DNA of 47,486 nucleotides. It comes from a virus. How positions within the stretch are numbered: position 1 is the stretch's first letter; the number at the start of each line of letters is the position of its first letter. This document shows positions 1-43,093 of the stretch, piece after piece. The translations under genes and the position numbers were made by a program. The notes beneath the pieces were generated by a model. It worked only from the letters and a program-made list of their open reading frames with translations, had not been told where the DNA came from and searched no databases. Location of the stretch: the IMG/VR virus record IMGVR_UViG_3300042904_000264, positions 1 through 47,486 of that record. The stretch is one strand, 5' to 3'.

Positions 1-157
1 TAGCATTAACTTTAAAAAACCTCTTTGTTATTTTTCTCAAACGCTTCATAAAATTGAAAACCGTCATAAGCATTATCAGGTAATGCATTATAAACGAGCC
101 CACTCTTATCAAACATGCGCGCGAAAAACTGATGGAAGTCGGCATGGTTTATCTGAT
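1..157. repeat. Terminal direct repeat, copy 1 (match at 47331-47486)
   Basis: Bases 1-157 match bases 47331-47486 except for one extra T in the run at 31-35. This is what an assembler yields from a circular or circularly permuted molecule, and it implies a unit of about 47.33 kb. The repeat lies inside a coding region, which argues against a biological fixed terminal repeat. Confidence 0.9.
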
Positions 158-263
158 CAACAGGTGTACCGTTTCCTGATCCATCATCATCACGAATGTT
201 TCCATACGGGTATTCTCCGTCTGGACCATCAGTGTTTGTCTTTGTCTTTAATTCTATAGCCAT
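1..263 (-). CDS. Tail fibre-like protein, N-terminal part (continues at the other end of the window)
   Basis: Starts at the ATG at 263 and reads MAIELKTKTNTDGP..., then joins in sequence to the protein at 46687-47486, because bases 1-157 repeat the window's last 156. In this copy a run of five T (31-35) replaces the four T of the other copy (47361-47364). The frame shifts after the residues AFEK and stops at base 12. With the four-T version the whole protein is about 301 residues. It directly follows the gp48-like baseplate gene, the usual place for a fibre or fibre-attachment protein. The frameshift is most simply an assembly or homopolymer error at the contig end. Role inferred from position and the Gly/Ser/Thr-rich beta-type composition of the C-terminal part. 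Confidence 0.65.
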
Positions 264-265
264 AA

Positions 266-979
266 TTATGTGTAATTGATAAGTAAAAAACCTACATCCT
301 GAACTTGTTTTATTCTTAAAATCAGTTGCCTAAACTCATCCTTCCTAGTGGTTGGAACGTTAGCATAAGACCCGATCGGATTTCCTCCAATAAAGAATGT
401 GCACTTAAGGGTACCTCCAAGATCGAAGTGATAATCTCTTTCCTCTTCGATGTGGTTTACTATTTTGTTTGCGTAGTAACCACCGTATTTGAACAGGCCG
501 TAATTCTTCTGACCATATTGAACTTTAGATTTAAGGTTGCTCAATCCAGTTACCTGCTCAGGTGTTTTCGTGAAATATCCGGTAGGGTAAAGTGGAAACC
601 TATTCTCATACACATATACATTGAATCCGGCTGATTGCAGCTGCTCTTCAAGATGTAAATAGTGGCCTTTCTCCGGAGTGTTACCAGGATAATTTAACTT
701 CCTTTGGATGGCCAGCTTTCGAACGGATAAAGTATTCGCAGAACCATCCACCATACCGAGCCTGCGTTCCCAATCTGTAGCATCGTCAGCTGTAAAGTTT
801 GCATTGTCCGGAAGTATGCTGTTGTGAATTGCAAGTGCATCCTGATAAGCTTGTGCCTCACTCACAGCTAAACCACGATGGAAGGCTTCGAGATATCCAT
901 TCAATGGCATCTTAAACGCTCTACCTGTTGGGTAAAGTTGTTTTGTGAGGGCTAATATTTTATCAGAAATACTAGACAT
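266..979 (-). CDS. Mu gp48-like (YmfQ/DUF2313) tail protein
   Basis: A 237-residue protein beginning MSSISDKILALTKQLYPTG. The N-terminal pattern (LYPTGRAF, then a helical segment and DWERRLG around residues 68-74) is typical of the Mu gp48/YmfQ family, which joins the baseplate wedge to the fibres. It overlaps the stop of the upstream baseplate J gene by a few bases and is followed by the fibre gene at 263, the same order as gp47-gp48-gp49 in Mu. Length agrees with the family. Function is from family and position. Confidence 0.75.
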   Translation of the reverse strand: MSSISDKILALTKQLYPTGRAFKMPLNGYLEAFHRGLAVSEAQAYQDALAIHNSILPDNANFTADDATDWERRLGMVDGSANTLSVRKLAIQRKLNYPGNTPEKGHYLHLEEQLQSAGFNVYVYENRFPLYPTGYFTKTPEQVTGLSNLKSKVQYGQKNYGLFKYGGYYANKIVNHIEEERDYHFDLGGTLKCTFFIGGNPIGSYANVPTTRKDEFRQLILRIKQVQDVGFLLINYT

Positions 980-2156
980 AAGTAACCGTATTTAAATTTG
1001 GAATGTAACCATCTGTAAATGTGAAGGTGGATTTACTCACACCATCAACTGTGAAAGATACTGTCGTAAAAACTGCACCTGGAATAGCTGACACTATTAT
1101 TCCGATCAACTTATTTGTATCGAGAATATCATTCTTATCGCTAAGAATATCAGCTCCGGACACAAATGGCCTAATTTCAGATATTGCGGCTGTGAACGCT
1201 GAGAGAAGTAATGTTTTTTGAGCGGCTGTAACACCAGTAAATCCAGTTATTGTAATCCCAATTTCCTTAACTGTAATTGGAAGAAAGTTTACTACAACCT
1301 GTAAAGGCCTGCGACCTCTTTCATTTAATGCGAGAGTCGTATCCGGATTAAACTCCACAACATCTTCAACATCATCCAAAATTGACTGTGATGGTGTGCC
1401 TTTTCCATCAGTAGAATCGGCAATCGTGGCTTCAACATAAAGATCAATCTCACATGGTGAGCCGCTTTTAGCATAGGGATATACCTGCTCAACACCCTGA
1501 GCATCTTGTGACCATAACCTATAGTCCGTTGCAGCACCTCCCTGAGGTTCCATTCTGTAGGAATTAAGTACCTCCTCTCGGTATTCCTCAGTGTCCTCAG
1601 CTGCTAAAGGTTGAACCACTATAGCTGAAACATATACACTCGCAGGACCGCTATTAACTAAAGCTATAGGTGCCGTTGGACTTAATGTGTTAAGCACATC
1701 AAGTTTTGAATCAGTACCTGGTGTTAAGGCGCGGACTGTTATAGTATCGGTTGATCCTGCAAGAGTGTGAGAACTGTCAAGAATAAATAAATAGCCGGGG
1801 CTCGCAGAAGTATCATCACTTTTAAATAAGGTCTGACCAGGTATAGTTGCACCCAGTGTTCCAGTTACAGTTAATGTATATTGACCGGCAACTGCAGCAA
1901 ACGGGTTTCTTCCAATCTTAACGCGACCAAACCTTTCCAATGTTCCACCCATGCTCTCTGGTTCTGCAGTATCCACAAAAATGTTTTTCTGTAAGTTGGC
2001 AATGGCTAAATAATAGAGCTTTAATTTCGCAGCCTGAACACTGGCCGTAGCCCTAAGAAATACTTTACCGATAAGAGAAATGGATACTCCCATTTCCGCT
2101 TCCAGATCAGCTTTTATTGAGGTGTATAAATCGTTAAGTGTTGGAATGGTTATCAT
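972..2156 (-). CDS. Baseplate J-like protein (Mu gp47-like)
   Basis: A 394-residue protein forming the baseplate wedge ring. The N-terminus is helical (PTLNDLYTSIKADLEAEMG). The middle holds the signature block AAEDTEEYREEVLNSY (about residues 182-197) followed by GGAATDYRLWSQ, characteristic of the gpJ/gp47 family, in which this part contacts the gp46/gp25-like subunit. The C-terminal half is beta-rich. It overlaps the preceding gp46-like gene by four bases, indicating translational coupling within the tail operon. Confidence 0.9.
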   Translation of the reverse strand: MITIPTLNDLYTSIKADLEAEMGVSISLIGKVFLRATASVQAAKLKLYYLAIANLQKNIFVDTAEPESMGGTLERFGRVKIGRNPFAAVAGQYTLTVTGTLGATIPGQTLFKSDDTSASPGYLFILDSSHTLAGSTDTITVRALTPGTDSKLDVLNTLSPTAPIALVNSGPASVYVSAIVVQPLAAEDTEEYREEVLNSYRMEPQGGAATDYRLWSQDAQGVEQVYPYAKSGSPCEIDLYVEATIADSTDGKGTPSQSILDDVEDVVEFNPDTTLALNERGRRPLQVVVNFLPITVKEIGITITGFTGVTAAQKTLLLSAFTAAISEIRPFVSGADILSDKNDILDTNKLIGIIVSAIPGAVFTTVSFTVDGVSKSTFTFTDGYIPNLNTVTYV

Positions 2157-2641
2157 AGGTAAAAATCATTATTGAAGTCTGCGATAAAGAAGTCACCGTC
2201 TGCTTTCTTTTTAAAATTGATGATGATTATTTTCTCACCCTTCGCCTCAAAGACGACGCGGATGCTTACATTAATTCGATCAGTTGCCACAATGGAAACC
2301 TTAACCTCAACAGTTGCTCCAAAATCTTCAAGAAATTCAAGATCTTTTTTTATTGCATTCTCAATTGTTACACGACCGGCACTGGTAAGTGGAGTGTTGT
2401 TTAACGTTCGCTCGGTTTCCGAATTGAATTGAGCAGATGGTGTATCACGAAATAATAAGCGATTTCCCCACCAATCAAAAGACTGAACGGGAACCTCTGC
2501 TTCCGTGGATTGTTCCACGTTACCACCGAACATGGCCAAATAGATCATGTTCTCTAAACCAAATACCAAAGCAAGATCACTGCCCTTTATTTGAACATCC
2601 CCACCATTTAAGGTTTCTATGACAGCTACATCGAAACTCAT
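2153..2641 (-). CDS. Mu gp46-like baseplate wedge protein
   Basis: A 162-residue protein between the tape measure and baseplate J genes. It contains the FDWWGNRLLF motif (about residues 55-64), which matches the conserved WWG element of Mu gp46-type proteins. The C-terminal half (TPLTSAGRVTIENAIKKDLEFL) looks like the gp25/gp46 fold, which pairs with gp47. It overlaps its neighbours on both sides by about four bases. Call based on motif plus context. Confidence 0.7.
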   Translation of the reverse strand: MSFDVAVIETLNGGDVQIKGSDLALVFGLENMIYLAMFGGNVEQSTEAEVPVQSFDWWGNRLLFRDTPSAQFNSETERTLNNTPLTSAGRVTIENAIKKDLEFLEDFGATVEVKVSIVATDRINVSIRVVFEAKGEKIIIINFKKKADGDFFIADFNNDFYL

Positions 2642-4578
2642 CTGTGCATTGTTGATCCTCCTGTGGAAGGAATAACACTCACCTGTTTTTTATCTCCTTT
2701 AACTTCGGTAACGGATCCTGGAGGAGTGTTAACGGTGATCTCAGCTTTCGCTTTATTATCCATCCACTTCGGATTAAATAATTCTTTGTTTCCTGTTTGG
2801 GTGTACTCCAACTGATTTGCCATGTCAGCAGTTTTTGCACTATTACTTAATGCAGCAAGTCGAGCCTGTATGTCACTGTTTTTAGAGGCCAGTTCCATAA
2901 TCTTATCTTTATCAGCTCCAAAAACTCCCTTCGCTTTCTCCTGTTCAATGAGTAAATTGTTATCAGCTAGTCGCTTTTCAAATAGTTTTTTCTCTGCCAT
3001 GGCCGCGCGCGCGACAGCCTGTTCACGGCTTAATCCTTGCTCTTGATATTTTTTGGATAACTCGTTTACTCTTGTGATCTCATTGTTGAATGAATTTTGC
3101 TTTTCTTTCTGCACTCTTTTTTCTACCTCATCCAATCCTTTAACTAAAGCATATACGCTGGCTACTAAAGTTCCAACAGCAAGAGCGGTAGCAACAAAAG
3201 GATTCATAGACATGGCAAAATTGAGTGCTCTCTGAGCAATAGTACTTGCTGTGGTTGCTGCTGTGTATGAACGCATCGCTGCAGAGTTTCCTTGTATTGC
3301 AAATAGTAAAGTCCCAGATCTGCTAGCTGCTAAACCAGCTGCTATATTCCAAGCAGTAAGTGCAACTTTGCTACCTATAATTAATGCCTTCCATGCTGTA
3401 AAAACTACAATAACATCAAGACCTACTGACACTATTGTATCAAGATTATCAGTAACAAACGCAAGAGCTTTCTTTACTTTTACCATACCTGCAGCTGCTT
3501 TATCGCTTCCGGTTAACATGTTAATCCACGCAGCCTTTAACTCATTGAGTTTTTCTTCCAACGTATCAGATCTGGTTGCAGCGGCTTTCTGCGCTTCGCT
3601 TGTACCTGTAACGCTATCAGTAAATTTTTTGAAGGTCTCAATGTTGCTTAAGAGAATCTTACCAGTAGCGATGTTTTCGGCTCCGAACATTTTTAAGATC
3701 GCAGCATCTTTTTCTTTCGCGGTTTTTAGCTTGTCAATTTTTGCCCGGGCTTCCTCCAAAGCATCATTGATCTGGAACTGCCCAGACTTATATCCGACAC
3801 CAGCCTGTTGAAGCTTAAGAACAGATCCTCTTAGTTTTGTTCCGGCCTCTGCCCCGAAGACTGAAAACTTACCCAGTGTTTGAACTAAACCTACCGATTG
3901 TTCAAGAGTAATGTTAGCGCCTTTAGCAACTGAACCGAAATTCACGAAAGCTTCAGATGTCTGAACAATAGATGAGGCACCGACATTGGCACCAGCTGCG
4001 AGTACATTAATGGTACGATCAGCCTGATCAGCCGCGAAATTGAATTGGTTCATTATACCAATTAGGCTTTCAGCTGATGGTCCCAATTCATCACCGGATG
4101 CTTTGGATAAAGTGATCACTGCTTTCGTTACGGACCCAATTGCCTGTGGAGTTTTAGCAAAGTCAGCATTCAATCCTGCAATTTTCTCAAAGGCCTCAGC
4201 GGTATCGATTGAAGATTTCTTTGTATCCTTAGCCACCTGGTTGATCATTTGCTGGAAAGGAGCGAACTCCTTATCCGTTCCTCCAACAATGGTCCTGAAG
4301 GAGGCTACTGCTTTCTCATATTCCATTATGGATTTGGCTGAGAAGGTAGCACCTCCAATAACAGCAGTTGCCACAGCTGCAGCACTTGCCATTCCCAATA
4401 ATTGCTTCTGAGTTTCGGATACTGCTGGTGTGAGTTTTTTAAACCAGCGCTCCTGCCTTGCAATACCTGAAGATGATACACCAATAAAGTTGTTCATGCT
4501 CGCGGTCATTTTTCTGACCGGAGCAGTTAACTTATCTACTGCTGTGAAGATACTTGGTATGACAAATTGTGCAGCCAC
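2638..4578 (-). CDS. Tail tape measure protein
   Basis: A 646-residue protein, the longest gene between chaperone and baseplate as expected for a tape measure. The N-terminal half resembles TP901/Mu-type tape measures (TAVDKLTAPVRKM; AFEKIAGLNADF; LSKASGDELGPSAESLIGIMNQF). Two hydrophobic stretches lie in the middle, near residues 385-420 and 450-475, followed by a charged coiled coil. It is translated from a GTG at 4578 two bases after the stop of the frameshifted chaperone product. Its length implies a fairly short tail. Confidence 0.9.
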   Translation of the reverse strand: MAAQFVIPSIFTAVDKLTAPVRKMTASMNNFIGVSSSGIARQERWFKKLTPAVSETQKQLLGMASAAAVATAVIGGATFSAKSIMEYEKAVASFRTIVGGTDKEFAPFQQMINQVAKDTKKSSIDTAEAFEKIAGLNADFAKTPQAIGSVTKAVITLSKASGDELGPSAESLIGIMNQFNFAADQADRTINVLAAGANVGASSIVQTSEAFVNFGSVAKGANITLEQSVGLVQTLGKFSVFGAEAGTKLRGSVLKLQQAGVGYKSGQFQINDALEEARAKIDKLKTAKEKDAAILKMFGAENIATGKILLSNIETFKKFTDSVTGTSEAQKAAATRSDTLEEKLNELKAAWINMLTGSDKAAAGMVKVKKALAFVTDNLDTIVSVGLDVIVVFTAWKALIIGSKVALTAWNIAAGLAASRSGTLLFAIQGNSAAMRSYTAATTASTIAQRALNFAMSMNPFVATALAVGTLVASVYALVKGLDEVEKRVQKEKQNSFNNEITRVNELSKKYQEQGLSREQAVARAAMAEKKLFEKRLADNNLLIEQEKAKGVFGADKDKIMELASKNSDIQARLAALSNSAKTADMANQLEYTQTGNKELFNPKWMDNKAKAEITVNTPPGSVTEVKGDKKQVSVIPSTGGSTMHR

Positions 4579-4579
4579 T

Positions 4580-5139
4580 TTATTTTTTAGGTGGGGTGTT
4601 TATCTCTCTCACATCATCGTACCAATACTCCAACCCCTTGTAGTCTTGATCATCAATAAAAAAGCCGCCTATAACTTCTGGCGGCCAATGAAATTCCCTG
4701 ACAACACTCTTAATCATGTTGTCGATACTGGTTTGATTTACATAAAAAAAATTGCCACCTTCTTTACCATGTTATAATCCTCAGTATCGAGGGCTTTAAT
4801 TACATTTTTAGGCTGGCCGGTCAAAACAGATCCATAAGCAGTGATCATTCCGTAGATATCATCTGACTTAACGCCAGACATCGCTGCCTGAATTTGAGCT
4901 GCACTGATTCGAGGTGAAAATAAAAGTTCAGTTGTGCTCACATCACCCTTTATTGGAAATAAAAGTTTGTACTTTATTACTTTTGAATCAGCCTCTATAA
5001 CAAAGGCACCTTCCTCAACAGCATCAGTTAATTCATTGATGGCTTCCTTCTTTTCATCCCTGCGTTTTTCCTTAACGTTTTTGAAATCCAACCAAGCTGC
5101 AATTTCCTTTTCCGCGATATCTCTAGATACTGCTCCCAT
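4580..5139 (-). CDS. Tail assembly chaperone, predicted -1 frameshift product (about 186 aa)
   Basis: The 133-residue chaperone frame ends GCA ATT TTT TTT ATG TAA. The run of eight T (minus strand, 4751-4744) offers a T TTT TTT slippery site just before the stop. Slipping back one base gives TAT GTA AAT CAA... and a 54-codon open extension, YVNQTSIDNM...FHWPPEVIGGFFID...EYWYDD...PPKK, ending with TAA at 4580-4582, immediately before the tape measure start. A long/short chaperone pair made by -1 slippage upstream of the tape measure is a widespread arrangement in tailed phages. The alternative is a separate 45-residue gene starting at the ATG at 4717. Confidence 0.7.
4738..5139 (-). CDS. Tail assembly chaperone, short form
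   Basis: A 133-residue protein, MGAVSRDIAEKEIAAWLDFKNVKEKRRDEKKEAINELTDAV..., encoded between the tail tube and tape measure genes. Size, position and the frameshift-competent 3' end fit the Mu gp41/lambda gpG role: binding the tape measure and guiding tube polymerisation, without being part of the virion. No catalytic motif is visible. It follows the tube gene with a one-base gap. Confidence 0.75.
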   Translation of the reverse strand: MGAVSRDIAEKEIAAWLDFKNVKEKRRDEKKEAINELTDAVEEGAFVIEADSKVIKYKLLFPIKGDVSTTELLFSPRISAAQIQAAMSGVKSDDIYGMITAYGSVLTGQPKNVIKALDTEDYNMVKKVAIFFM

Positions 5140-5140
5140 A

Positions 5141-5551
5141 TTATCCTACAATTTTTTTAAGATCGTTACTGCCTGCAATTTTCAAATTGAATGTAGCGGT
5201 GTTAGCATTCCCCTGGATATCTCCAACAGGAGAGCCGGTACCTTTCCACACAGTCCCATTAATGTGAGAGATGGTGAATGTGGCCTCAACAGGATCACCT
5301 GCTAAATCACGCATCTGTTTCACCTCATCAGCTGAGTTCATATCCCACGACATGGTGCCTTCAAAGGACCAGCGAACACGATTTAATTGTCTGATGGATT
5401 GACCACCGGTTGTGATCATGTTAGCATCATCGTTGCCTCGGATACCACCCTCATCAAAGGTTGAATCCTCATTTGATTTAGGTTTAAGGACACCACTTCC
5501 TTTTGTTGGATGGTTCCAGGTTATCTCGGTAATATCTCCACCTACTGGCAT
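5141..5551 (-). CDS. Tail tube protein
   Basis: A 136-residue, mostly beta protein: MPVGGDITEITWNHPTKGSGVLKPKSNED..., with RVRWSFEGTMSWDMNS in the middle. It directly follows the sheath gene, as in Mu (L then M) and P2 (FI then FII). Size and composition match contractile-tail tube proteins, whose hexamers stack to form the inner tube. Assigned from order and composition, with moderate sequence recognition. Confidence 0.75.
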   Translation of the reverse strand: MPVGGDITEITWNHPTKGSGVLKPKSNEDSTFDEGGIRGNDDANMITTGGQSIRQLNRVRWSFEGTMSWDMNSADEVKQMRDLAGDPVEATFTISHINGTVWKGTGSPVGDIQGNANTATFNLKIAGSNDLKKIVG

Positions 5552-5565
5552 GTTTTATAATTTTT

Positions 5566-7086
5566 TTAGTTTAATGTTCCGAAATTAAAGCCGGCTTCTG
5601 CGGTCGTACTTGAAATCCTCGCCACTCCGCTGCGCTTGTACCTGAAGAATGTTTCCAACCTGTCAGGGTTTGATGTTCCAATTCCAACTTCAAGAGAATC
5701 CTGCATGAACTCAGGCTGTACAATGATCGCCCTGTTAGCAAGATCATCTGCATACTGAGACAGTATTGCAATCCACTGTTTTGGTTTAATCACATTGGTT
5801 GCTGATACCGTATCATCATTAGACGCAATCACATGATCAACCACGTTTGTTTGTTCAAGTAGGTAGTAGCCATAGCGAACATTCAAATCGATGTTGTATA
5901 GATTACGTACATAGCGATACTGAGGTGGATTCTCTCCAAGCTTATGATAAGTTGTTACGAAATCCTGAACAACATACTGCCCACCTACAAGGTCAACAGT
6001 TGAACATCCTTTTTTCACAAACTCATCGCGGTTATCATAGTCAGCCATAGAACCGATATCTGTCGGTGTTGGCATGTCAGGATATGCACGACCAATGACA
6101 TCAAGATGCGGAGTATTCTGTGCGTTCACAGCTTGTAACACTGTCATGTTAGCGGCTGCTTCCATTGGCAATCCATCAGACTCCGGTGCCGGAGCGATAG
6201 CAATGGTAACATTATTTAAGCGCGCATCAGTAATCGATGTTGGGTCATCAGCTGTTGAGCCGGTAATTGCAACAAAAGGTTTCATCACAATACCTGTGAA
6301 ACGACCGGTTGGATTTGTTGGATCGGGAATACCATTGAAATTTTCAAGAGCACTCATGATTGTAGAGACAGTTCCATAACTGTTCACTACAATAGTAACC
6401 CATTCATTTCCGATCGCATTAAGAGCTGCAGAAATTGAAGGAGTGCCAGATCCAGACTGAATGCTATTAACTGTATACGTTATACCAAGTGCGTTATCAC
6501 CAGTATCTATTTCAACAGAAATGTCATTTGCGGTTAAGCCTTTCCACTTACTGGTAAGAACTGCTTCGTAATCATAATCAACTGCGCTCACAGGTGAACC
6601 AAGGATGTTGTTTACAGCATCTGTAATTTTCGCGGTAATGTCAGCAGTAGTATCACCTTCCAAGATGTTAATAGCATAGAAGTCACCATCCATACCATCG
6701 CGGCCAGCTACTTTCACATAGTGTGTACCATTTCCTGTAGCGGTTCCTGATGGAACAACAGTTAAAACTTTTGCAGTGGCTCCAACAGCTGCTTCCTGGA
6801 CTGAGTAAATCACAGGGATTCCACCAACGCCATCACTCTGTTTTGGGTGCAGGATACGTGCAATTAAATAAGCCGGTGAACCATATCCATAAGCGTCACC
6901 AACTTCTTGGGCGCTTGTATATTGGGTTGGATCTGTATCTAAAGTGGCTTGATTTGCCGTGTTCGCTTCACATAAAACAAGGATACGCTGTGGAAGGTTA
7001 GGGGTTACTGTTTGGAAATTGCCCTTTGTGAGTTTATAACCTACAACACGGGAAATTCTTTCTAAACCTACTGCATCTGATGACAT
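5566..7086 (-). CDS. Contractile tail sheath protein (Mu gpL-like)
   Basis: A 506-residue protein with the organisation of Mu gpL sheaths: an N-terminal segment (GLERISRVVGYKLTKGNF), a variable beta-rich central insertion, and a C-terminal part with MADYDNRDEFVKKGCSTVDL, YVVQDFVTTYH and a final RYKRSGVARISSTTAEAGFNF. It shows that the tail is contractile. It is the first gene of the late tail segment; a 220-bp gap separates it from the divergent glycosyltransferase island, and that gap holds the 26-bp palindrome at 7128-7153. Confidence 0.92.
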   Translation of the reverse strand: MSSDAVGLERISRVVGYKLTKGNFQTVTPNLPQRILVLCEANTANQATLDTDPTQYTSAQEVGDAYGYGSPAYLIARILHPKQSDGVGGIPVIYSVQEAAVGATAKVLTVVPSGTATGNGTHYVKVAGRDGMDGDFYAINILEGDTTADITAKITDAVNNILGSPVSAVDYDYEAVLTSKWKGLTANDISVEIDTGDNALGITYTVNSIQSGSGTPSISAALNAIGNEWVTIVVNSYGTVSTIMSALENFNGIPDPTNPTGRFTGIVMKPFVAITGSTADDPTSITDARLNNVTIAIAPAPESDGLPMEAAANMTVLQAVNAQNTPHLDVIGRAYPDMPTPTDIGSMADYDNRDEFVKKGCSTVDLVGGQYVVQDFVTTYHKLGENPPQYRYVRNLYNIDLNVRYGYYLLEQTNVVDHVIASNDDTVSATNVIKPKQWIAILSQYADDLANRAIIVQPEFMQDSLEVGIGTSNPDRLETFFRYKRSGVARISSTTAEAGFNFGTLN

Positions 7087-7127: not shown

Positions 7128-7153
7128 TAAAAAAAGTTCCGTTGATAACGGAA
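7128..7153 (-). promoter_or_regulatory. 26-bp palindrome plus A-tract, copy 1 (identical copy at 40965-40990)
   Basis: The 17-base element TTCCGTTGATAACGGAA (7137-7153) is a perfect 7-base inverted repeat with a three-base centre, preceded by seven A and a G. Read on the minus strand it is a hairpin followed by a run of seven T, the layout of an intrinsic terminator or attenuator, placed just before the sheath gene. The identical 26 bases recur before the head protease gene, beside a ribbon-helix-helix gene, so an operator role is equally possible. Confidence 0.6.
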
Positions 7154-7306: not shown

Positions 7307-7987
7307 ATGCGGGTAGGTGTCATTATTCCTTCGCGTGGTGACCGGCCACAACTTTTGGACAATTGCCTACGCATGTTGAAAAATCAAACCGTCCAACCAG
7401 AAATTATAGAACTTGTAAATCATCTTCCGGAAAGTAAAGAATGTGATATCACCAAAAGATACCGCGAAGGATATGATCGGTTGAGAAATAAAGCTATTGA
7501 TGTGATCGCGTTGATGGAGGACGATGATTATTACTCACCTCAGTATTTGGAATCAATGCTGGGTGTGTGGGAAAAAAAGAAACGTCCTGATCTTTTAGGT
7601 ACTGATTACACTATATACTACCACATAAAGTTGTTCTCTTATTTTATAATGCACCACATGGAGCGGGCCAGTGCCATGAACACCCTTATTAAACCCGACC
7701 TGAATTTCGAATGGTGTCCTGATAACGAACCTTACACAGATTTGCATTTATGGGATCTGGTGTCAAAAGGCAAATTGAATGGAGTGGTTTTTCACCCGAC
7801 TAAACACTATTCAATTGGAATAAAGCATGGTGTTGGTATGTGCGGAGGAAGATCACATACCGACCGATTGCACCGGTATCAAGGAAATCACAGTACTCAG
7901 GATTACAGTAAGGACTTTCTCAGAGAACATATGGATGCTGAGAGTTTTAATTTCTATTCAAATTATTTTAAAAATGAAGCCAAATAA
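7307..7987 (+). CDS. GT-A (family 2-like) glycosyltransferase, first gene of the island
   Basis: The protein MRVGVIIPSRGDRPQLLDNCL... has the typical N-terminal strand of family 2 glycosyltransferases and the acidic metal/nucleotide-sugar motif MEDDDYYSP at about residues 72-80. About 226 residues from the ATG at 7307; an upstream TTG at 7280 would add nine residues but is less likely. No membrane segment is seen, so a cytoplasmic enzyme is expected. It runs against the surrounding late genes. Its 3' end overlaps the next gene by 14 bases. Sugar donor and acceptor cannot be read from sequence. Confidence 0.8.
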   Translation: MRVGVIIPSRGDRPQLLDNCLRMLKNQTVQPEIIELVNHLPESKECDITKRYREGYDRLRNKAIDVIALMEDDDYYSPQYLESMLGVWEKKKRPDLLGTDYTIYYHIKLFSYFIMHHMERASAMNTLIKPDLNFEWCPDNEPYTDLHLWDLVSKGKLNGVVFHPTKHYSIGIKHGVGMCGGRSHTDRLHRYQGNHSTQDYSKDFLREHMDAESFNFYSNYFKNEAK

Positions 7988-8315
7988 AATAACTCCACAG
8001 GTTTATAAAACCTTAGTTGAAACTGCAGCGAAGTTGCCACCATTCCAACGAAAAGATAAAAATGGAAACCTCCTTTGGAGAGCTGCATCCAGATTCGTTA
8101 AAGGATCTGAGCTTACGCAAAAAGTTACAGCGGACGGTAAAGCAATTAAACCTGATGAAATGTATGTTCAACAAGGAAGACAGCCATTGTTAGTTAACCA
8201 CCAGGTTAATTTAATTGAGGTCTATATGAAGGATGGTCAGCCAGGAGTGGATGAATATGTGGACTTCTTTGCGAACATACATGAAGAAAGCAAAACTAAA
8301 AAAGAGAAAACATGA
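7974..8315 (+). CDS. Hypothetical protein of the glycosyltransferase island (113 aa)
   Basis: I start this gene at the ATG at 7974 (MKPNKITPQVYKTLVETAAKL...), which overlaps the preceding gene by 14 bases; the longer upstream frame is only the shadow of that gene. The protein is basic and soluble with no motif I recognise: DGKAIKPDEMYVQQGRQPLLVNH in the middle and a Lys-rich tail. It overlaps the next glycosyltransferase by four bases, so it is clearly part of the operon. A role as a partner of the transferases is only inference. Confidence 0.65.
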   Translation: MKPNKITPQVYKTLVETAAKLPPFQRKDKNGNLLWRAASRFVKGSELTQKVTADGKAIKPDEMYVQQGRQPLLVNHQVNLIEVYMKDGQPGVDEYVDFFANIHEESKTKKEKT

Positions 8316-8992
8316 TAATTACACTTTTACACCCATCGAGAAGTCGGCCACAAAAGTCGCGTGAAACATATGAGTATTGGATGTCACAGACATCAGGAAC
8401 GGTAGAAATTGAACACATCCTTTCGTTGGATTTTAGTGATCCTTTTAACGAAGATTATTCAATGGTTGAAAAAGAGGGAGAAAAAGAACATAAGCCGTTC
8501 GGTAAAAATTCACACACAATAATCGATCATAACGACTGTGTTGTGGAAGCGACAAATCAAGCTGCAAAATTGGCAAAAGGTGACATACTAATTTATCTTT
8601 CAGATGATTTTAAGTGTCCGAAGAATTGGGATTTATTACTGGTCGAAAAGTTTAAAGATTTGAACCGGCCGGCGCTCATTAAAGTTGATGATTGTCTGCA
8701 GAAGTTCCACGTACCGGTTCTTACAATTCCAATCATGAACTCCTTATTGTTTAAGAAACTTGGGTATTTCTGGCATCCTGGTTACAGATCAATGTTTGTG
8801 GATGAGGATTTGTTTTGGGTTTGTGAAACAAACGGATTTATGATCTATGCTCCGGACCTACAGTTTCCACACGAACATCCAGCAAATGGTAAGGCTCAAA
8901 GTGATGAAACTTACAAAAGAAGTTCAGCGAATTGGGATCAGGGTAAAGCGATGTTTGCTAAAAGAAAACAGGAAGGATTTAAACTACCATGA
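8312..8992 (+). CDS. Putative GT-A glycosyltransferase
   Basis: A 226-residue protein beginning MIITLLHPSRSRPQKSRETYEYW, with AKGDILIYLSDDFKCPKNWD (about residues 89-108) holding the acidic pair expected of a GT-A donor site, and FVDEDLFWVCETNGF further on. The pattern is like phage and bacterial family 2 transferases that begin with a strand and Arg-rich loop. No transmembrane segment. Overlaps both neighbours by about four bases. Substrate unknown. Confidence 0.7.
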   Translation: MIITLLHPSRSRPQKSRETYEYWMSQTSGTVEIEHILSLDFSDPFNEDYSMVEKEGEKEHKPFGKNSHTIIDHNDCVVEATNQAAKLAKGDILIYLSDDFKCPKNWDLLLVEKFKDLNRPALIKVDDCLQKFHVPVLTIPIMNSLLFKKLGYFWHPGYRSMFVDEDLFWVCETNGFMIYAPDLQFPHEHPANGKAQSDETYKRSSANWDQGKAMFAKRKQEGFKLP

Positions 8993-9570
8993 TTCTTTCA
9001 ATACTCATACCGACATTGCCAGACCGAGTTCATTTTTTTGCAGAACTGAGGGATTCAATTATCAACGATTGCCCACCTGAATTATTAGGGCAAATCGAAA
9101 TAGTTAGTGATCATCGACCGCGCGCTGGGTTGGAAGGTGGAGTCACTACCGGTGTCAAGCGAAACGATATGTTGATGAAAGCGAAGAGTGAATATGTGTG
9201 GCAAGTTGATGATGATGATAAGCTATTCCCATATGCGATATCTGAAGTGATAAATGCCTGTAAAACCGGTGCTGATGTAATCGGAATTAATGGTATCATG
9301 ACAACCGATGGATTGAATGAACAAGGGTGGGAGATACGTTTGGGTCATGCTTACAAAGCAGAGATACGGGACGGAAGAGAATATTATTTCCGGTTTCCGA
9401 ATCACATCACCCCTATGAAAAGAGAACACGCATTGAAAGTCAAATTCCCAAACAAAACAATATTTGAGGATTATGAATGGGCTTGTGCTCTTCGAGATCT
9501 AGGAGTTTTAAAAACACAAACCGTAATTGACAAACCAGTTTATCATTATAGAGTAAGATCAAAAAAATAA
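8989..9570 (+). CDS. Family 2-like glycosyltransferase
   Basis: A 193-residue protein, MILSILIPTLPDRVHFFAELRD..., with the GT2 opening strand, the GVKRNDMLMKAKSEYVWQVDDDDKLFP segment (DxD-like motif at about residues 73-77) and a C-terminal EDYEWACALRDLG block that fits the catalytic-base/acceptor region. Shorter than full GT2 proteins, so it is a minimal catalytic domain. It lies in a tightly spaced operon of such genes. Confidence 0.8.
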   Translation: MILSILIPTLPDRVHFFAELRDSIINDCPPELLGQIEIVSDHRPRAGLEGGVTTGVKRNDMLMKAKSEYVWQVDDDDKLFPYAISEVINACKTGADVIGINGIMTTDGLNEQGWEIRLGHAYKAEIRDGREYYFRFPNHITPMKREHALKVKFPNKTIFEDYEWACALRDLGVLKTQTVIDKPVYHYRVRSKK

Positions 9571-9574
9571 ACAT

Positions 9575-10186
9575 ATGTATTCACAAGGTAAAGAAGAGGA
9601 AGTTATTGTAAAATTCTTCAACGGGAGAAATGGAACTCTCCTTAGTATTGGAGAGAATGATGGAAAAACATTTTCAAATTCTCTGCGATTGATTGAATTA
9701 GGATGGGATGCTGTTCTGGTAGAACCTTCACCTGTTGCTTTTCAAAAGATGTTCGATCTGCACAAGGACAATAAAAAAGTGTGCATGGCCAGGGTTGCTA
9801 TAGGAATTGTTAATGGTAAAGGTGTTCTTCACGAATCAGGACATCATCTCCCGAATCAATCTGATGTGGCATTACTAAGTTCATTAAAGAAGGAAGAAAC
9901 CGTTAAGTGGAAGCGAGTGGACTTCAAAGAGCAGGATGTGGACGTTTTAGATTTCAAGACATTCCAAACCCTAGTGCCTAAAAAGAATTATGATTTCATA
10001 ACCATTGACGCAGAGGGAATGGATATCGAGATCCTTAAGCAAATCAACTTATCAAAAACGCATCTTCTTTGTATAGAGTATAATGAAAATGTGCAGGCGA
10101 AGGATGAAATAATAAAGTATTGCGCAGAGTTCGGAATGTGTAATCTTCTTTATCAATCCGGAGAAAATTTGATAATAAGCAGATGA
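9575..10186 (+). CDS. FkbM-type SAM-dependent methyltransferase
   Basis: A 203-residue protein with the FkbM layout: GTLLSIGENDGKTFSNS (SAM-binding motif I, about residues 21-37), WDAVLVEPSP (acidic ribose contact, about 47-56) and NYDFITIDAEGMDIEILKQI (motif IV, about 137-156). FkbM enzymes O-methylate sugars or small molecules, which fits its place between glycosyltransferases. It overlaps the next gene by four bases. Confidence 0.85.
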   Translation: MYSQGKEEEVIVKFFNGRNGTLLSIGENDGKTFSNSLRLIELGWDAVLVEPSPVAFQKMFDLHKDNKKVCMARVAIGIVNGKGVLHESGHHLPNQSDVALLSSLKKEETVKWKRVDFKEQDVDVLDFKTFQTLVPKKNYDFITIDAEGMDIEILKQINLSKTHLLCIEYNENVQAKDEIIKYCAEFGMCNLLYQSGENLIISR

Positions 10187-10389
10187 AGCGGATACTAAAA
10201 GGTATTGAGGTTAATAAGATCTTTAAAGTAATTGATAGCTGTTATACCAGTGAGCACTTACACACTACTTGGTTATGGATTATTGGAATGAACTTAGATC
10301 AGAATCAGACATTCAATGCGCTTAGCTTTTTAAAACACATCGAAAACAGAGAACGTAAATTAAAACTATATGAAACGACCATACTTTGA
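10183..10389 (+). CDS. Small hypothetical protein (68 aa)
   Basis: MKRILKGIEVNKIFKVIDSCYTSEHLHTTWLWIIGMN... overlaps the stop of the methyltransferase by four bases and overlaps the start of the next small gene by 20 bases, suggesting translation coupling. Mixed hydrophobic and charged residues; no clear membrane helix or motif. Function unknown. Confidence 0.55.
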   Translation: MKRILKGIEVNKIFKVIDSCYTSEHLHTTWLWIIGMNLDQNQTFNALSFLKHIENRERKLKLYETTIL

Positions 10390-10495
10390 CAACTGGCAAA
10401 GAGGACTTATAAAGTCCAATACCCTCACCGGAGCACTAGTGCTACTGAAGCTAAAGAAAGAAATCTTATTAAGAAACATATCAAGACTATTCTAA
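10370..10495 (+). CDS. Very small protein in the island (41 aa)
   Basis: An ATG at 10370 opens a 41-codon frame (MKRPYFDNWQRGLIKSNTL..., ending RNISRLF) whose TAA at 10493-10495 shares a base with the ATG of the next gene at 10495. The start/stop overlap and the same-strand packing suggest a real gene. Basic; no recognised family. Confidence 0.5.
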   Translation: MKRPYFDNWQRGLIKSNTLTGALVLLKLKKEILLRNISRLF

Positions 10496-11235
10496 TGAAC
10501 TCAAAAACCGTCATTTTAAATTTTGCGAATAACGTGGGGCGATATGCTCAAATGCAAAAGCGATTAATCCAGGCGCTGGATAAAGTAGGATACAAAGGAG
10601 ATTTGGGGTTCTTCCAACATGAAGAACATATTCACCATAACTGCCCTTACCATAAATCAGAAGATCCACAACACCATCAGGAAGGTAAGGTGGTTCCATA
10701 TGCTTTCAAAGCATGGGCTATAAATGAAGCCGTAAAAAAAGGATATGAAACAATCATATGGATGGATTCTGCCGTTTACCCTAGCAGGGATATAACTCCA
10801 TTCATTGATCACATCAATCAACACGGTTATATATTTTTTGATAACATCGGCTACTCTGTTGGTGATTACACCTCAGATGCTTGTTTAAATAAGCATGGAT
10901 GGAGCAGGGAAAAAGCCTTTGGTGCAAAGATGATCATGGCTTGTCTAATGGGATTCAATACAAAATCGCTTGACGCAAAGAAGTTTATACATCAATACTT
11001 TGAGGCTGCAAAGGATGGTATAAGTTATCAAGGGTCTTGGAATAATGCCAACGGTGAAGTAAGTGAAGATATGAGAGTGAAAGGTCACCGACATGATCAG
11101 TCGGTTGCGAGCATGATAATCCATGATATGAAGTTGACAATCACAAATGCACAGGATACTTTCTTCGCGTACACTTCACATAAAGGAATTTTAAAAATCG
11201 CGGACAGTGTTTGTCTGTGGTCAGAGGGAATTTAA
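10495..11235 (+). CDS. Putative glycosyltransferase-like protein
   Basis: A 246-residue protein. A Rossmann-like strand is followed by VPYAFKAWAINEAVKKGYETIIWMDSAVYPSRD (about residues 66-98), where WMDSAVYP resembles the donor-site DxD-type motif of GT-A transferases, and by GHRHDQSVASMIIHD (about 196-210), like the HDQ acceptor/catalytic segment of small galactosyl- or mannosyl-transferases. His-rich near residues 41-62. No membrane segment. Exact family uncertain. Confidence 0.6.
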   Translation: MNSKTVILNFANNVGRYAQMQKRLIQALDKVGYKGDLGFFQHEEHIHHNCPYHKSEDPQHHQEGKVVPYAFKAWAINEAVKKGYETIIWMDSAVYPSRDITPFIDHINQHGYIFFDNIGYSVGDYTSDACLNKHGWSREKAFGAKMIMACLMGFNTKSLDAKKFIHQYFEAAKDGISYQGSWNNANGEVSEDMRVKGHRHDQSVASMIIHDMKLTITNAQDTFFAYTSHKGILKIADSVCLWSEGI

Positions 11236-11247
11236 AATAAAAGAAAA

Positions 11248-11850
11248 ATGGGATATACAAGTTTCACACTCACTTTGGTAACTGAATTGTTGGCAAAGTT
11301 TAATCCTAAGTCGGTGATCGATTTAGGTGCACAGAATAATTATGCGCAACCAAAGTTGCCGGCACCATACATGAAAGAGTGGTATGAAGAACAGAAAATT
11401 GATTATCTGGCTATCGATATTAATAATGAGAATGGTGCTGCACCACTCGACTTAAGCAAACCATTACCCGTTGATTTTATTGAACGATGTGATATGTTAG
11501 TTGATGCCGGTACGAGTGAGCATGTGAGTGACGGCAAGGGTGGTCATGATATCAAGGCGATTTATAACTGCTGGAAAACTAAAAACGATCTCCTGAATAT
11601 AGGAGGCATAATGCTAAATGAAAATCCAAAGACGGGGAATTGGCCTGGGCATGGATGTAATTATTATACTCAGGACTTTTACATCAAGTTAGCAGAGTTG
11701 CAAGGTTATGAATTATTAAGTCTGCAGGAGAACGCTGCAATGGGTAACGTCACAGATGGATGGAATGTAACCTGTGTTCTAAGAAAGGTCAATGATCACA
11801 AGTTTATTTCTTTGGAAACTTTCAAGCTTTGTGGTATTAAGACATCGTGA
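11248..11850 (+). CDS. Putative SAM-dependent methyltransferase
   Basis: A 200-residue protein. FNPKSVIDLGAQNNY (about residues 18-32) is a SAM-binding motif I, followed by IDYLAIDINNENGAAPLDLSKPLP, CDMLVDAGTSEHVS and a later GGIMLNENPK segment: the alternating strand layout of class I methyltransferases. The GTSEHV element is common in small-molecule or sugar methyltransferases. It overlaps the following glycosyltransferase by four bases. Confidence 0.7.
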   Translation: MGYTSFTLTLVTELLAKFNPKSVIDLGAQNNYAQPKLPAPYMKEWYEEQKIDYLAIDINNENGAAPLDLSKPLPVDFIERCDMLVDAGTSEHVSDGKGGHDIKAIYNCWKTKNDLLNIGGIMLNENPKTGNWPGHGCNYYTQDFYIKLAELQGYELLSLQENAAMGNVTDGWNVTCVLRKVNDHKFISLETFKLCGIKTS

Positions 11851-12575
11851 AACTAGTAGCAATATATAATGTTTGGGACGGTGTAGAATTACTGCGCGGG
11901 TCCATGGAATGTCTGAAAGATCATGTGGATTTCTTCATTATAGTCCACCAGGATGTGTCAAATTTCGGTGAGAAGTATGACCCCCTTCCAGAGATTAATC
12001 TTGAAGGGGTAAATTATTTCCTAATAAAGTACACTCCGGAACGATTAGGTGGTGCAAATAACGAAAGAGCAAAACGCAATTTAGGTATTGAAGCTGCTAA
12101 GACTTATGGATTCACACACTTCATTCTTATGGATACTGATGAGTATTACCAGGACTTTGGTAAAGCGAAGGAATTATACATTCAATCTGGAGCTTCAGGA
12201 TCCGTATGTAAATTATTCACCTACTTTAAGGAGCCAACCCTTCGTTTTGAAACAGAGGATGGATATTATGTGCCATTTATTCACCAACTGAAGCCAAACA
12301 CTGAAGCTGGCCGAAAGGAATACCCATTCTATGTTGATCCTACCAGGCGAATAAATGAGGTTAATGTGGCGGAGTTACCAGCGCACATGCACCACTTCAG
12401 TTGGGTAAGAAAAGATATTGAGAGGAAGGCGAGAAATTCTAGCGCGAAAGCGAATCTGGAACGCGGAACCATGCTGCAGGATTACCACAATCCAGAAGTC
12501 AAGGAGGGGTTTTATGTGCGAGATTATGATAAGAAATTGATTCGTGTTCCAAACCAATTCAATATTTTATTGTAA
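11847..12575 (+). CDS. GT-A glycosyltransferase, last gene of the island
   Basis: A 242-residue protein with the family 2-like opening MKLVAIYNVWDGVELLRGSMECL and the donor motif THFILMDTDEYYQDFG (DTDE, about residues 95-98). The segment PAHMHHFSWVRKDIERKARNSSA near the C-terminus resembles the acceptor-side lid of sugar transferases. It ends convergent with, and overlapping by nine bases, the minus-strand gene at 12567, which closes the island. Confidence 0.75.
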   Translation: MKLVAIYNVWDGVELLRGSMECLKDHVDFFIIVHQDVSNFGEKYDPLPEINLEGVNYFLIKYTPERLGGANNERAKRNLGIEAAKTYGFTHFILMDTDEYYQDFGKAKELYIQSGASGSVCKLFTYFKEPTLRFETEDGYYVPFIHQLKPNTEAGRKEYPFYVDPTRRINEVNVAELPAHMHHFSWVRKDIERKARNSSAKANLERGTMLQDYHNPEVKEGFYVRDYDKKLIRVPNQFNILL

Positions 12576-12962
12576 TTCATTCCCAGTTAAAGCATAGTAA
12601 AGGTTCTGTAATTGATGGACAAACTTTATATTCGGAACATCCAAATCATAATAGGGGTCATCTCCAAAGCTACTAACAGCAAAGTGGCATTTTGTGCGCC
12701 ACGCGGTTAAGTCGTCAAAATATTTTATAGGATAAAGACCAAGAACACAGTCTTGATCTTGTTTAAACCCAAACTTAACGAGCCATTCTTCAGTTATAGA
12801 AATTGGTTCAAACCATTTGCCAGGATAGTGGTTGCTCACAGTAAATTTTTCCTCTTGAATTAGCGTAACAAGTCCCACACCGTGAAATTGGTTTAGGTGA
12901 TCTTTGTCAGGTTGAACATAATTTCCCAACCTCAACTCGTTTAACTTAATCATTGCTTCCAT
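12567..12962 (-). CDS. Conserved phage hypothetical protein (131 aa)
   Basis: The protein reads MEAMIKLNELRLGNYVQ... ITEEWLVKFGF ... IKFVHQLQNLYYALTGNEL. This layout (NELRxGN near the start, TEEWLxKFGF in the middle, VHQLQNLYxALTGxEL at the end) is frequent in Bacteroidota phages and prophages; its function is unknown to me. It lies directly downstream of the large terminase on the same strand. A start at the fourth codon is also possible. Confidence 0.75.
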   Translation of the reverse strand: MEAMIKLNELRLGNYVQPDKDHLNQFHGVGLVTLIQEEKFTVSNHYPGKWFEPISITEEWLVKFGFKQDQDCVLGLYPIKYFDDLTAWRTKCHFAVSSFGDDPYYDLDVPNIKFVHQLQNLYYALTGNELQ

Positions 12963-12971: not shown

Positions 12972-15005
12972 TTATTTTCTTCTTAATACCATATTCACAT
13001 AGTCCTGCCATGTGTAATTCGGAATCTTCGCTAAACGACAAGCCATCGAGGTGAGTATATCCTTTAAAGCGAGGTTATACACGCGCACATCCCACATGTG
13101 ATTCTGGGCTGTTTGAGATTTCTTAACCCATCTGGCCGCAATACCTTCACCGTCTTTACGCGCTTCAATAACACGATGTTCTGATTCGAAGTGCTCAAAG
13201 TAATTACTAAAAAGATATTTACCTTCGGATGGTGTAGGGAAATTCATAAAGCCTGGCGGCTGCTTATCATCAACACCGTTATTCCATTTTAAAGTCATTA
13301 GACTTGAAAGAATATCTTTCACCTGACCAACTTCAACCAGATATAACTTTGATCTCTCTTTCCCGATTTTAAAAGTCGGTAGATCCTTACCGTATGGTAT
13401 ATACTTATCAACGTCTTTACCTTTCAGTCCCACAATTGTCGGTGTGTTTTTTTTATCGATGTATGGATACGCAAGATGAGAGTAGTGGCCAGTGTCAATT
13501 CCGGTCATGAGTATCTTCATTTTGCGGCCCGTATCTGTCATGTAAAAGGTATCAAGGATTTTATCAAGTTCGTTCCAAACAGAGTTAGGTTTATTGTGTT
13601 CATACGTCCACCTTTCACGATCTTCTTTGTGCTTTAGTGTAGATTCCCTTGGAATAAATGTACCAATGCTACCATGAACAACACTGTAACTCGATCCTGT
13701 TTCACTCCATGCTACAACCTCATAATCCAAGCGCGCATCATCTATAAATCCACGCGCCTCATTCCGGATAGTACCGTTCAAGTCACAAGCGCAGGTTAAC
13801 AAAACAATCTTACCATTACCATCCTGCTCCGAAATCTTCTCAGGTATAGTGCCGATCTCATAGTTTCGAACGTTCCTTTGTAAGTCTGAAGCTTCTGGTG
13901 CCTCACCTTGTTGCTCATAAGTCTCACCGAGAACTACGTTAACAAATGTTTGGTACTTTTTTTCTTTTCTTTTTTCACCTGCGGGGTTGGCCTGAATGTA
14001 CTGATTAACGTAGAACTCCCACGAATCCATACCAGGAGGTGCATATAAACTACTTATTTGATAGGAGTAATGATCTTTTTCTTTTGGAATGACGGTCGGA
14101 ACCCACATGCCATTGAGATTCATTTCGTATTTATGAGTGTCATTAAAGAACTGCGAGCACTTCTGACAGATATATCCGACACTTTCAGAGATCACGGATC
14201 CGTGATTATCAAGTTTCCATGTGATACCAGCTGATTCTTTTTCATCTATTGGAACTGACCACTTCAACACTATGGGTTGGTTGCAGCAAGGACAGGGTAC
14301 GTTGTAAAACCTCTGATCACCTAACTCAAATACTTCCTCAATGTTACTTTGCCCTTTAACTTGTGGAGATGATACCCAATATATTTTTTTCTTATGGGCA
14401 AAGGATGATGTTCTTTTCTGAACTAACTCACGTGTGGCACCGGCTTCTTTTGAACTGGAAGGCGCTGCATCATAATCATCCACAATCATAATCATAACAT
14501 CATGCTGCCTGAGTAAATTGTGATTTGTAACGCTTCCACTTTTAAAGTCACCACCAGCGAACTCTTTACTTTTGTTGGTGTCACCGGTCCTGCTGTTCTT
14601 CGCCCTTAAAATACTCGGACGAATTAAAGGTCGTAACCCACAATTATCAATCATATGATCGATCTTTACCACCGCAGCTTCTGAAAGATCACTATGACCA
14701 GTTAAAAACATGATATTGCCTGGATTCTGTGATATGGTATAACCAACCACAGGATTGAGAACCGCTGCAGTTCCACCGAGCTGCGCACCCTTCATGATGG
14801 AAATCTCTTTTGCAGGATGATCCTTGGCGGCACAATCCAAAGGCTCTCGCCAATAAGGTGTAAGGTTAAAGGAGAATGGGCCAGGAAAAGCAGATCCGCG
14901 TGGCATGATCATGTTTTGTTCGTACCATTCTGAAGGTTTGATATCGGACACATGTAAGCGCGTACCTTCAATGATATCTTCTAAAATGCTTTCGTAAATT
15001 TCCAT
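12972..15005 (-). CDS. terL: Terminase large subunit, GpA family
   Basis: A 677-residue packaging motor of the lambda gpA type. The N-terminal ATPase has a divergent Walker A, KGAQLGGTAAV (about residues 72-82), and Walker B MIMIVDDYDAAP (about 170-181). A zinc-binding pair of CxxC motifs follows (CPCCNQP near 238, CQKCSQF near 280). The C-terminal nuclease region contains MTGIDTGHYSHLAYPY (about 507-522). GpA-family terminases usually cut at cos sites, consistent with the Nu1-like gene just upstream and a lambda-like head. Confidence 0.93.
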   Translation of the reverse strand: MEIYESILEDIIEGTRLHVSDIKPSEWYEQNMIMPRGSAFPGPFSFNLTPYWREPLDCAAKDHPAKEISIMKGAQLGGTAAVLNPVVGYTISQNPGNIMFLTGHSDLSEAAVVKIDHMIDNCGLRPLIRPSILRAKNSRTGDTNKSKEFAGGDFKSGSVTNHNLLRQHDVMIMIVDDYDAAPSSSKEAGATRELVQKRTSSFAHKKKIYWVSSPQVKGQSNIEEVFELGDQRFYNVPCPCCNQPIVLKWSVPIDEKESAGITWKLDNHGSVISESVGYICQKCSQFFNDTHKYEMNLNGMWVPTVIPKEKDHYSYQISSLYAPPGMDSWEFYVNQYIQANPAGEKRKEKKYQTFVNVVLGETYEQQGEAPEASDLQRNVRNYEIGTIPEKISEQDGNGKIVLLTCACDLNGTIRNEARGFIDDARLDYEVVAWSETGSSYSVVHGSIGTFIPRESTLKHKEDRERWTYEHNKPNSVWNELDKILDTFYMTDTGRKMKILMTGIDTGHYSHLAYPYIDKKNTPTIVGLKGKDVDKYIPYGKDLPTFKIGKERSKLYLVEVGQVKDILSSLMTLKWNNGVDDKQPPGFMNFPTPSEGKYLFSNYFEHFESEHRVIEARKDGEGIAARWVKKSQTAQNHMWDVRVYNLALKDILTSMACRLAKIPNYTWQDYVNMVLRRK

Positions 15006-19668: not shown

Positions 19669-20071
19669 ACGGGTTCAATTTTCAGATTCATATCTGAGGA
19701 TGAATAGAGTTATGAAAAAACAAAACAGGGTAGGAACAGTTGTTGGGTTCAATTACAACGGAACTTTTGTAAAAGTTCTTTGGGATGGAAACGTAACTCC
19801 AGTGTCTTATCACGTTGAAAATTTAAGGGTGGCTGACATTGAAGAAAACAGATACAATTCATTCAGTTTTCCAACATATAAAGATCCAGCAACGCTGACA
19901 TCGGACGATTACGACTATCTGAGTGACTGGTTAAAACGTCTTAAGGAATATCAAAAATATTTAGGCATTGTAAGTATGAAGCAGGCTGAAAGAAGATGGC
20001 AAATGATCCAAACAACAAAAGAGATTGAGAGACTGGAGATAGTATTAATGGTTAACGAACAAGTAGCATGA
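19652..20071 (+). CDS. Hypothetical early protein (139 aa)
   Basis: Starting at the ATG at 19652 (MITNLKRVQFSDSYLRMNRVMKKQNRVGTVVGFNYNGTFVKVLWDG...). The GTVVGFNYNGTFVKVLWDG segment resembles a small beta-barrel of the KOW/Tudor-like type; the C-terminal half is helical (ERRWQMIQTTKEIERLEIVL). Overlaps the next gene by four bases. Function unknown. Confidence 0.6.
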   Translation: MITNLKRVQFSDSYLRMNRVMKKQNRVGTVVGFNYNGTFVKVLWDGNVTPVSYHVENLRVADIEENRYNSFSFPTYKDPATLTSDDYDYLSDWLKRLKEYQKYLGIVSMKQAERRWQMIQTTKEIERLEIVLMVNEQVA

Positions 20072-20514
20072 TCAAAGATCAACTCACTGTCCTTGGTGAC
20101 CTGTATGAGGATACCAAAGATCACCTCAACGCGATAGATGTTCGTGTTCATGATGAGAACAAACTATTTAAAGTGTTTCAAAACTTAAGGGATATCAGAG
20201 ATATCGCAGCTGTTAATGTTCCTAAAGGAAGGATTTACATCGCGGGTAAGATCGGAGGTTTACAGTACTCAGAGTACACATTAAAGTTTTCATTAGCAGA
20301 AATAGAACTCTTAAAGAGGGGGTTTGAGACCGTTAGTCCTTTAACTCTACCTCATCAGCACGAAAGAAGTTGGAAGTCCTATATGAAGGAAGATTTGGAA
20401 GCGCTTAAATCATGTGATCACTTGTTTGCTCTTTCAAATTGGGAAGACAGCCGTGGTGCCAGAATTGAAGTGTGGTTTGCTAAGAGGTATAACAAAACCA
20501 TCATTTATCAGTAA
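20068..20514 (+). CDS. DUF4406 / nucleoside 2-deoxyribosyltransferase-like protein
   Basis: A 148-residue protein whose C-terminal hundred residues begin GRIYIAGKIGGLQYSEY and include SPLTLPHQHERSWKSYMKEDLEALKSCDHLFALSNWEDSRGARIEVWFAK, the pattern of DUF4406, a Rossmann-like fold related to nucleoside deoxyribosyltransferases. Chemistry in phages is not established; nucleotide or NAD-type substrates are plausible. N-terminal helix region (about 1-50) is extra. Confidence 0.75.
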   Translation: MIKDQLTVLGDLYEDTKDHLNAIDVRVHDENKLFKVFQNLRDIRDIAAVNVPKGRIYIAGKIGGLQYSEYTLKFSLAEIELLKRGFETVSPLTLPHQHERSWKSYMKEDLEALKSCDHLFALSNWEDSRGARIEVWFAKRYNKTIIYQ

Positions 20515-35039: not shown

Positions 35040-35045
35040 ATTTGT

Positions 35046-38023: not shown

Positions 38024-38087
38024 CTTAATAAAAAAGGGACTACATTATCATATAATCCCTTTTATTGTTAGAATGGTGAACTGTAAA

Positions 38088-38411
38088 TTATTGCAACCCT
38101 ATCCAAATTTTGTAAAGAACCTTTTTATTTGCATTCTCATCGAACTCTATTTCGATGCCAGATGCTTTCGCCTCTTGTAGTTTTTTTATGATCTCAGCTT
38201 TGCTTATTTGCTCTATCGAAGGTGGGAGTACTGGTGAAGGAGCAGGAGGTTCAATCTCATCCTCTTTTGTCACAGGCTCTAAAAACCCTTGTTCCACCAG
38301 CAACTTTGCATTGCCTCTTGGAAAATTCTCATCGGTGACAAAATCACCGAATGAGAATATTTTATTACCCAGGCCACCGACAGATAAGGCCTTAACCTTA
38401 TACTCAGCCAT
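38088..38411 (-). CDS. Head-completion protein with HeH/LEM-like C-terminus, FI position (107 aa)
   Basis: A small N-terminal domain (YKVKALSVGGLGNKIFSFGDFVTDENFPRGNAKLLVEQGFLEPV), a Pro-rich linker (PPAPSPVLPP), and a C-terminal helix-extension-helix-like part (ISKAEIIKKLQEAKASGIEIEFDENANKKVLYKIW). It occupies the place of lambda FI between capsid and FII. The HeH-like part could bind DNA or the terminase. One base overlap with the capsid gene. Confidence 0.6.
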   Translation of the reverse strand: MAEYKVKALSVGGLGNKIFSFGDFVTDENFPRGNAKLLVEQGFLEPVTKEDEIEPPAPSPVLPPSIEQISKAEIIKKLQEAKASGIEIEFDENANKKVLYKIWIGLQ

Positions 38412-43074: not shown

Positions 43075-43093
43075 GATAGAAGTATAATGATTT

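Follow-up and report, generated by a model that had tools for sequence, protein, structure and literature searches.

The IMG/VR virus record IMGVR_UViG_3300042904_000264, analyzed over its full length of 47,486 bp (hereafter the window), carries an island of glycosyltransferase (GT) and methyltransferase genes at positions 7307-12575 on the plus strand, lying between the tail sheath gene (5566-7086, minus strand; PHROG, 2e-81) and the terminase gene TerL (12972-15005, minus strand; PHROG, 3e-140), on the opposite strand to the late genes. The first and last ~156 bases of the record are identical but for a small indel, so the record is circular or terminally redundant, and it is probably complete. 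Its gene content is that of a contractile-tailed phage (sheath, tube, tape measure, baseplate, portal, protease, major capsid protein (MCP) and TerL) and includes an integrase and a repressor, so the phage is probably temperate. The island spans 5,269 bp (11.1% of the record) and contains ten tightly packed open reading frames (ORFs), or nine if a 41-aa ORF is left out: five confirmed or likely GTs (genes A, B, C, D and E), an FkbM methyltransferase, a probable second methyltransferase (MT) and three small genes of unknown function. Seven of the nine junctions overlap by 1-20 bp and the remaining two are gaps of 4 and 12 bp, which bears out the first-pass annotation of this DNA, where the island had been described as a single nine-gene unit of about 11% of the genome, running against the late operon. 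Both GC and AT skew flip sign across the island. At its sheath end lies a terminator-like hairpin with a CTTTTTTT tail (7137..7153, minus strand; fold z-score -1.9), which, judging from the sequence, would be positioned to end late transcripts crossing the island antisense. A Bacteroidetes-type promoter upstream of gene A was considered and rejected: an exact TAnnTTTG occurs at 7107 but lacks a correctly spaced TTTG, and matches of this sort are frequent.

The GT-A fold of genes A and E is confirmed at the level of structural models. The AlphaFold2 (AF2) model of gene A (7307-7987, 226 aa; PHROG glycosyltransferase, 3e-5), which occupies an end of the island in most relatives, has a pLDDT of 96.6 and is matched by Foldseek to SpsA (1qg8, TMq 0.58) and heparosan synthase; residues E71 and D73 are invariant across 43 sequences. 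Gene E (11847-12575, 242 aa) yields a model of pLDDT 96.3 that Foldseek places with the SunS/ThuS peptide S-glycosyltransferases (5e-8) and phage GT17-like proteins; SunS, ThuS and COLGALT1, all peptide glycosyltransferases, are among the solved folds nearest to it. Gene C (8989-9570, 193 aa; PHROG_14775, 1e-24) contains an invariant DxDD motif and has a profile match to TarS (5tze, 5e-9), while gene B (8312-8992, 226 aa; PHROG_14945, 2e-18) has an invariant S-D-D and matches annotated glycosyltransferases of Streptomyces phages. Genes A, B and C also show weak Glycos_transf_2 matches (1e-3 to 1e-4); the GT-A fold with its acidic donor-site motif is assigned through models for A and E, through the profile for C, and through the weak family matches and motif for B. 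Profile comparison with hhalign relates A to C (96%), and a kinship of A with B was rejected (1.2%). Gene D (10495-11235, 246 aa) is a probable glycosyltransferase-like enzyme, assigned from its module context and an aspartate (D91, in a WxDS motif) invariant in 21 sequences; it has no match in Pfam, PHROG or PDB, and its assignment to TOD1/MUCI70 (hhalign probability 5%) or to the family of gene E (1.7%) was discarded.

The FkbM methyltransferase (9575-10186, 203 aa; PF05050, 5e-10) scores 40.2 bits, above the gathering score of 22.7, making this a secure family assignment. The second enzyme, MT (11248-11850, 200 aa), is a probable class-I S-adenosylmethionine (SAM) methyltransferase: it bears a motif I-like (D/E)LGAQN and, although the window protein has no class-I family match, one relative weakly matches Methyltransf_12 (0.0038). 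The earlier assignment of several GT-A enzymes, an FkbM protein and a further SAM methyltransferase is therefore upheld, with D and MT graded as probable. Among the small genes, the 113-aa ORF (7974-8315) has nine homologue matches in all, mostly near-copies; the 68-aa ORF (10183-10389, 4-bp overlap) has seven; and the 41-aa ORF (10370-10495), which overlaps its upstream neighbor by 20 bp and its downstream neighbor by 1 bp, bridges the two across the sole apparent gap of the island. No match was obtained among annotated phages by tblastn with A, D or MT.

Relatives were obtained initially by a TerL search, which returned phages with TerL followed directly by the sheath gene or with an island in between; the sheath was then used as the sole query, to avoid selecting on glycosyltransferases. 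This survey kept the best 80 loci and gave 49 non-redundant ones whose contig includes TerL, an island being defined as an insert with at least one of seven enzyme families. The site is empty (16-162 bp) in 21 loci, holds a glycosyltransferase island (0.85-9.2 kb) in 24 and another insert in four; because the sheath seed alignment was made up mostly of island phages and the selection was limited to the top 80 loci, these counts are not population frequencies. All 24 islands are single-stranded in orientation, 15 running against the late genes and nine with them; gene A is present in 23 and gene E in 17. Chance can be set aside, since dozens of phages that have diverged from one another have the island at this same position. 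On the sheath tree, whose backbone is weak, the empty or island state requires four changes, versus 16.2 when shuffled, and the locus is thus old, mostly inherited and stably kept rather than rapidly hopping. The notion of a replaceable cassette consequently holds in part: the site can be empty, its contents vary and both orientations occur, but presence or absence follows the sheath tree. A further 66 proteins from these islands include asparagine-synthase/glutaminase proteins, hexapeptide transferases, TylF and other methyltransferases, a PIG-L deacetylase and WbqC, and would together constitute a kit for sugar tailoring.

Gene order was surveyed in 30 non-redundant islands pooled from all searches; these were located by homology to their own members, which inflates gene sharing but not order. 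With gene A left out of account, gene E is last in all 30, gene B is first in 28 of the 29 that have it, and no island is of mixed strand. Gene A itself is first in 18 islands, last in four and absent from eight. The full B-C-FkbM-D-MT-E set recurs with its order unchanged in phages that have a different TerL, for example L117, where the module adjoins TerL, and the same module without MT is found in L113, where its neighbors are head and packaging genes. This occurrence of B-C-FkbM-D-(MT)-E beside different terminase or structural genes indicates that the module moves between phage types. Genes A and E also lie close together in three large contigs, L084, L092 and L094 (482, 161 and 374 kb), and part of the system is thus shared by very large phages. 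Glycan cassettes are a known kind of locus; the conserved, modular architecture found here is undescribed in the literature searched.

A small protein encoded in the head operon connects some of these enzymes to the capsid genes. In about 17 relatives, island glycosyltransferases begin with a ~50-aa domain whose first match is the window protein at 38088..38411 (minus strand), encoded right after the MCP gene (blastp, 9e-10). Among ~7,400 ORFs, this domain is seen in two settings alone, namely the post-MCP protein and the island glycosyltransferases; in some relatives one such fusion occupies the slot of the 113-aa gene. The post-MCP protein lies between the MCP and the head-closure gene in most relatives, whether or not they bear an island, so the idea that the domain is specific to island phages proved wrong. 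It is conserved across the lineage, has no Pfam match and a weak match to PHROG_6286, and ends in a tail that varies and is acidic or HeH-like; the ~50-aa domain at its N-terminus is undescribed. A domain common to a head-operon protein and island enzymes would fit a predicted docking of the enzymes on the particle. We tentatively propose, as an idea with the odds against it, a modular assembly line for glycans, in which the first (B, C) and last (E) genes are fixed, the middle steps can be exchanged, and some enzymes are recruited to the nascent capsid through this docking domain.

The interpretation that we favor, with a probability of roughly 0.6, is that the enzymes of the cassette build an O-methylated glycan on a virion protein in the cytoplasm, in the manner of mycobacteriophage Che8. 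Under this model, the cassette would act in the host cytoplasm while particles are produced: the soluble GT-A products of genes A, B, C, E and probably D would transfer sugars from host-made nucleotide sugars onto a phage protein or onto one another's products in a stepwise manner, FkbM and the second methyltransferase would methylate these sugars, and the resulting decorated oligosaccharide would alter the particle surface. We infer that these are active enzymes with a virion protein as their acceptor, that the product is an oligosaccharide methylated on sugar oxygens, and that the benefit lies in the changed surface.

Several lines of evidence support this reading. The island is a cluster of soluble GT2-type glycosyltransferases in a tailed phage, and gene C is homologous to Che8 gp108 (E 1e-9, 28%) and LittleE gp15 (34%), glycosyltransferases of mycobacteriophages, a group in which virion glycans are reported; PMC12619734 and PMC11256854, citing Freeman 2023, place glycans on the C-termini of capsid and tail-tube proteins and name Che8. 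The locus lies among virion genes, at the TerL-sheath site in the 24 loci above and next to TerL or head genes in L117 and L113, respectively, and nine of the 24 islands are co-directional with TerL and sheath. The reading is likewise supported by the ~17 relatives whose island enzymes bear the domain of a protein encoded between capsid and head-closure genes, by the peptide glycosyltransferases among the folds nearest to gene E, and by the tailoring enzymes (TylF, hexapeptide acyltransferases, PIG-L, WbqC and asparagine-synthase type) held by other islands. All window island proteins remain below a 19-residue Kyte-Doolittle mean of 1.2, our criterion for a membrane segment, in agreement with the first-pass annotation, and this absence of membrane parts makes its proposal of a cytoplasmic acceptor, such as a virion protein, a likely one. 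Across relatives, transmembrane-like proteins account for nine of 299 island proteins (some arising from over-extended starts) versus 95 of 789 elsewhere, which argues against a flippase, polymerase or Gtr partner. A tyrosine integrase was found in three of ~19 long island-bearing records, which are possibly incomplete, and a serine recombinase in none, so the role does not seem tied to lysogeny.

Four observations weigh on the other side. The MCP, tail tube and sheath show no acceptor signature, their length and C-terminal S/T/N content being the same in island-bearing and empty phages; genes for nucleotide-sugar synthesis were not found; the window's own island enzymes all lack the capsid-gene domain; and the window island opposes the late genes, as many lysogenic-conversion genes do, in a phage with integrase and repressor. 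The last point leads to lysogenic conversion, in which the island would be expressed from the prophage to change a host surface glycan and block superinfection. The opposite strand and the terminator-like hairpin at the sheath end recall many morons, island interiors vary like serotype loci, and gene C resembles TarS and TarP, the latter of which is prophage-encoded. This explanation, also raised by the first-pass annotation, is nevertheless disfavored and we regard it as unlikely, since the islands contain no membrane proteins such as GtrA, GtrC, a flippase or a polymerase, nine of them run in the late-gene direction, and most long island-bearing records lack a tyrosine or serine integrase. 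The same difference separates the locus from the Gtr serotype-conversion modules (GtrA/GtrB/GtrC), which resemble it as phage-borne GTs carried as accessory genes but require a membrane flippase (GtrA) and a polytopic transferase (GtrC), neither of which is present.

Somewhat less probable still is a cassette that acts during host takeover on a host cytoplasmic or secreted protein (e.g., a gliding or pilus protein) or on a soluble metabolite; soluble enzymes would permit this, and the comparison of MCP, tube and sheath revealed no acceptor, but the locus is consistently sited among virion genes, even in phages of different types, and island enzymes bear the capsid-gene domain, both of which speak against it. 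Least probable is DNA hypermodification, in which the GTs would glycosylate modified phage bases to counter restriction: virus-encoded GTs do hypermodify DNA (Pyle 2024, as cited in PMC12619734) and several GTs per operon could make a di- or trisaccharide on a base, but a thymidylate-synthase or hydroxymethylase family gene (PF00303) was found in none of 25 records, window included (other hydroxylation routes lie outside that search), and the early genes of the window show no hydroxymethyl-pyrimidine pathway, which also sets these phages apart from T4-type DNA glucosylation, with which they have phage GTs in common.

With a virion glycan as the preferred reading, the closest known systems are those of mycobacteriophages. 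The earlier statement that phages usually have their GTs one at a time is not supported: Che8 (gp108-110), LittleE (gp15-21) and Streptomyces phages have them in clusters, and in the present lineage clustering is the rule. Che8 and its kin resemble the island in their adjacent GT genes, the homology of gp108 to gene C and the capsid glycans reported for the group. The Che8 operon lies at the right genome end with three GTs and no methyltransferase listed there, whereas the present island is sited between TerL and sheath, begins and ends with conserved genes, and includes FkbM together with a second methyltransferase. LittleE (cluster J) likewise has a GT cluster within the virion gene block, including the gene C homologue gp15, but this cluster is co-directional, is located between capsid and connectors, contains a kinase and has no annotated methyltransferase. 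SunS and ThuS, the former phage-encoded in SPbeta, provide the solved folds closest to gene E, but at ~12% identity, and the island has no visible cysteine-peptide substrate gene.

The surroundings of the island include a small conserved gene (12567-12962, late strand; PHROG_10066) beside TerL, whose stop overlaps the end of gene E and which is also found between TerL and the island in some relatives. Around the circle, the late genes (1-7086 and 32417-47445) follow an odd order: TerS, TerL, sheath, tube, tape measure, baseplate, hub, portal, protease, MCP and lysis. The early operon contains a DUF4406, nucleoside 2-deoxyribosyltransferase-like gene (20068-20514). Near-identical contigs occur in a metagenome-assembled genome (MAG) named 'Bacteroidetes bacterium' and in IMG/VR. 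When 395 genomes of that phylum were queried with the sheath and gene A, the phage-carrying MAG alone was returned, so the host link derives from binning. One relative, L013, has its TerL-sheath island (3224-5731) on a contig binned as Phycisphaerales.

Virion glycans have been reported mainly in mycobacteriophages, and the present system would extend them to a large lineage of uncultured phages with contractile tails, of which one member is binned with Bacteroidetes, as an ordered glycan cassette kept at a dedicated genome site over deep divergence. The fixed-order enzyme set is available for reconstruction, and the domain common to the post-MCP protein and island enzymes offers a candidate route by which soluble enzymes may find the capsid. 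The purpose of the glycan, whether adsorption, particle stability or protection from enzymes, becomes testable, with island-free sister phages that have the same head and tail serving as natural controls.

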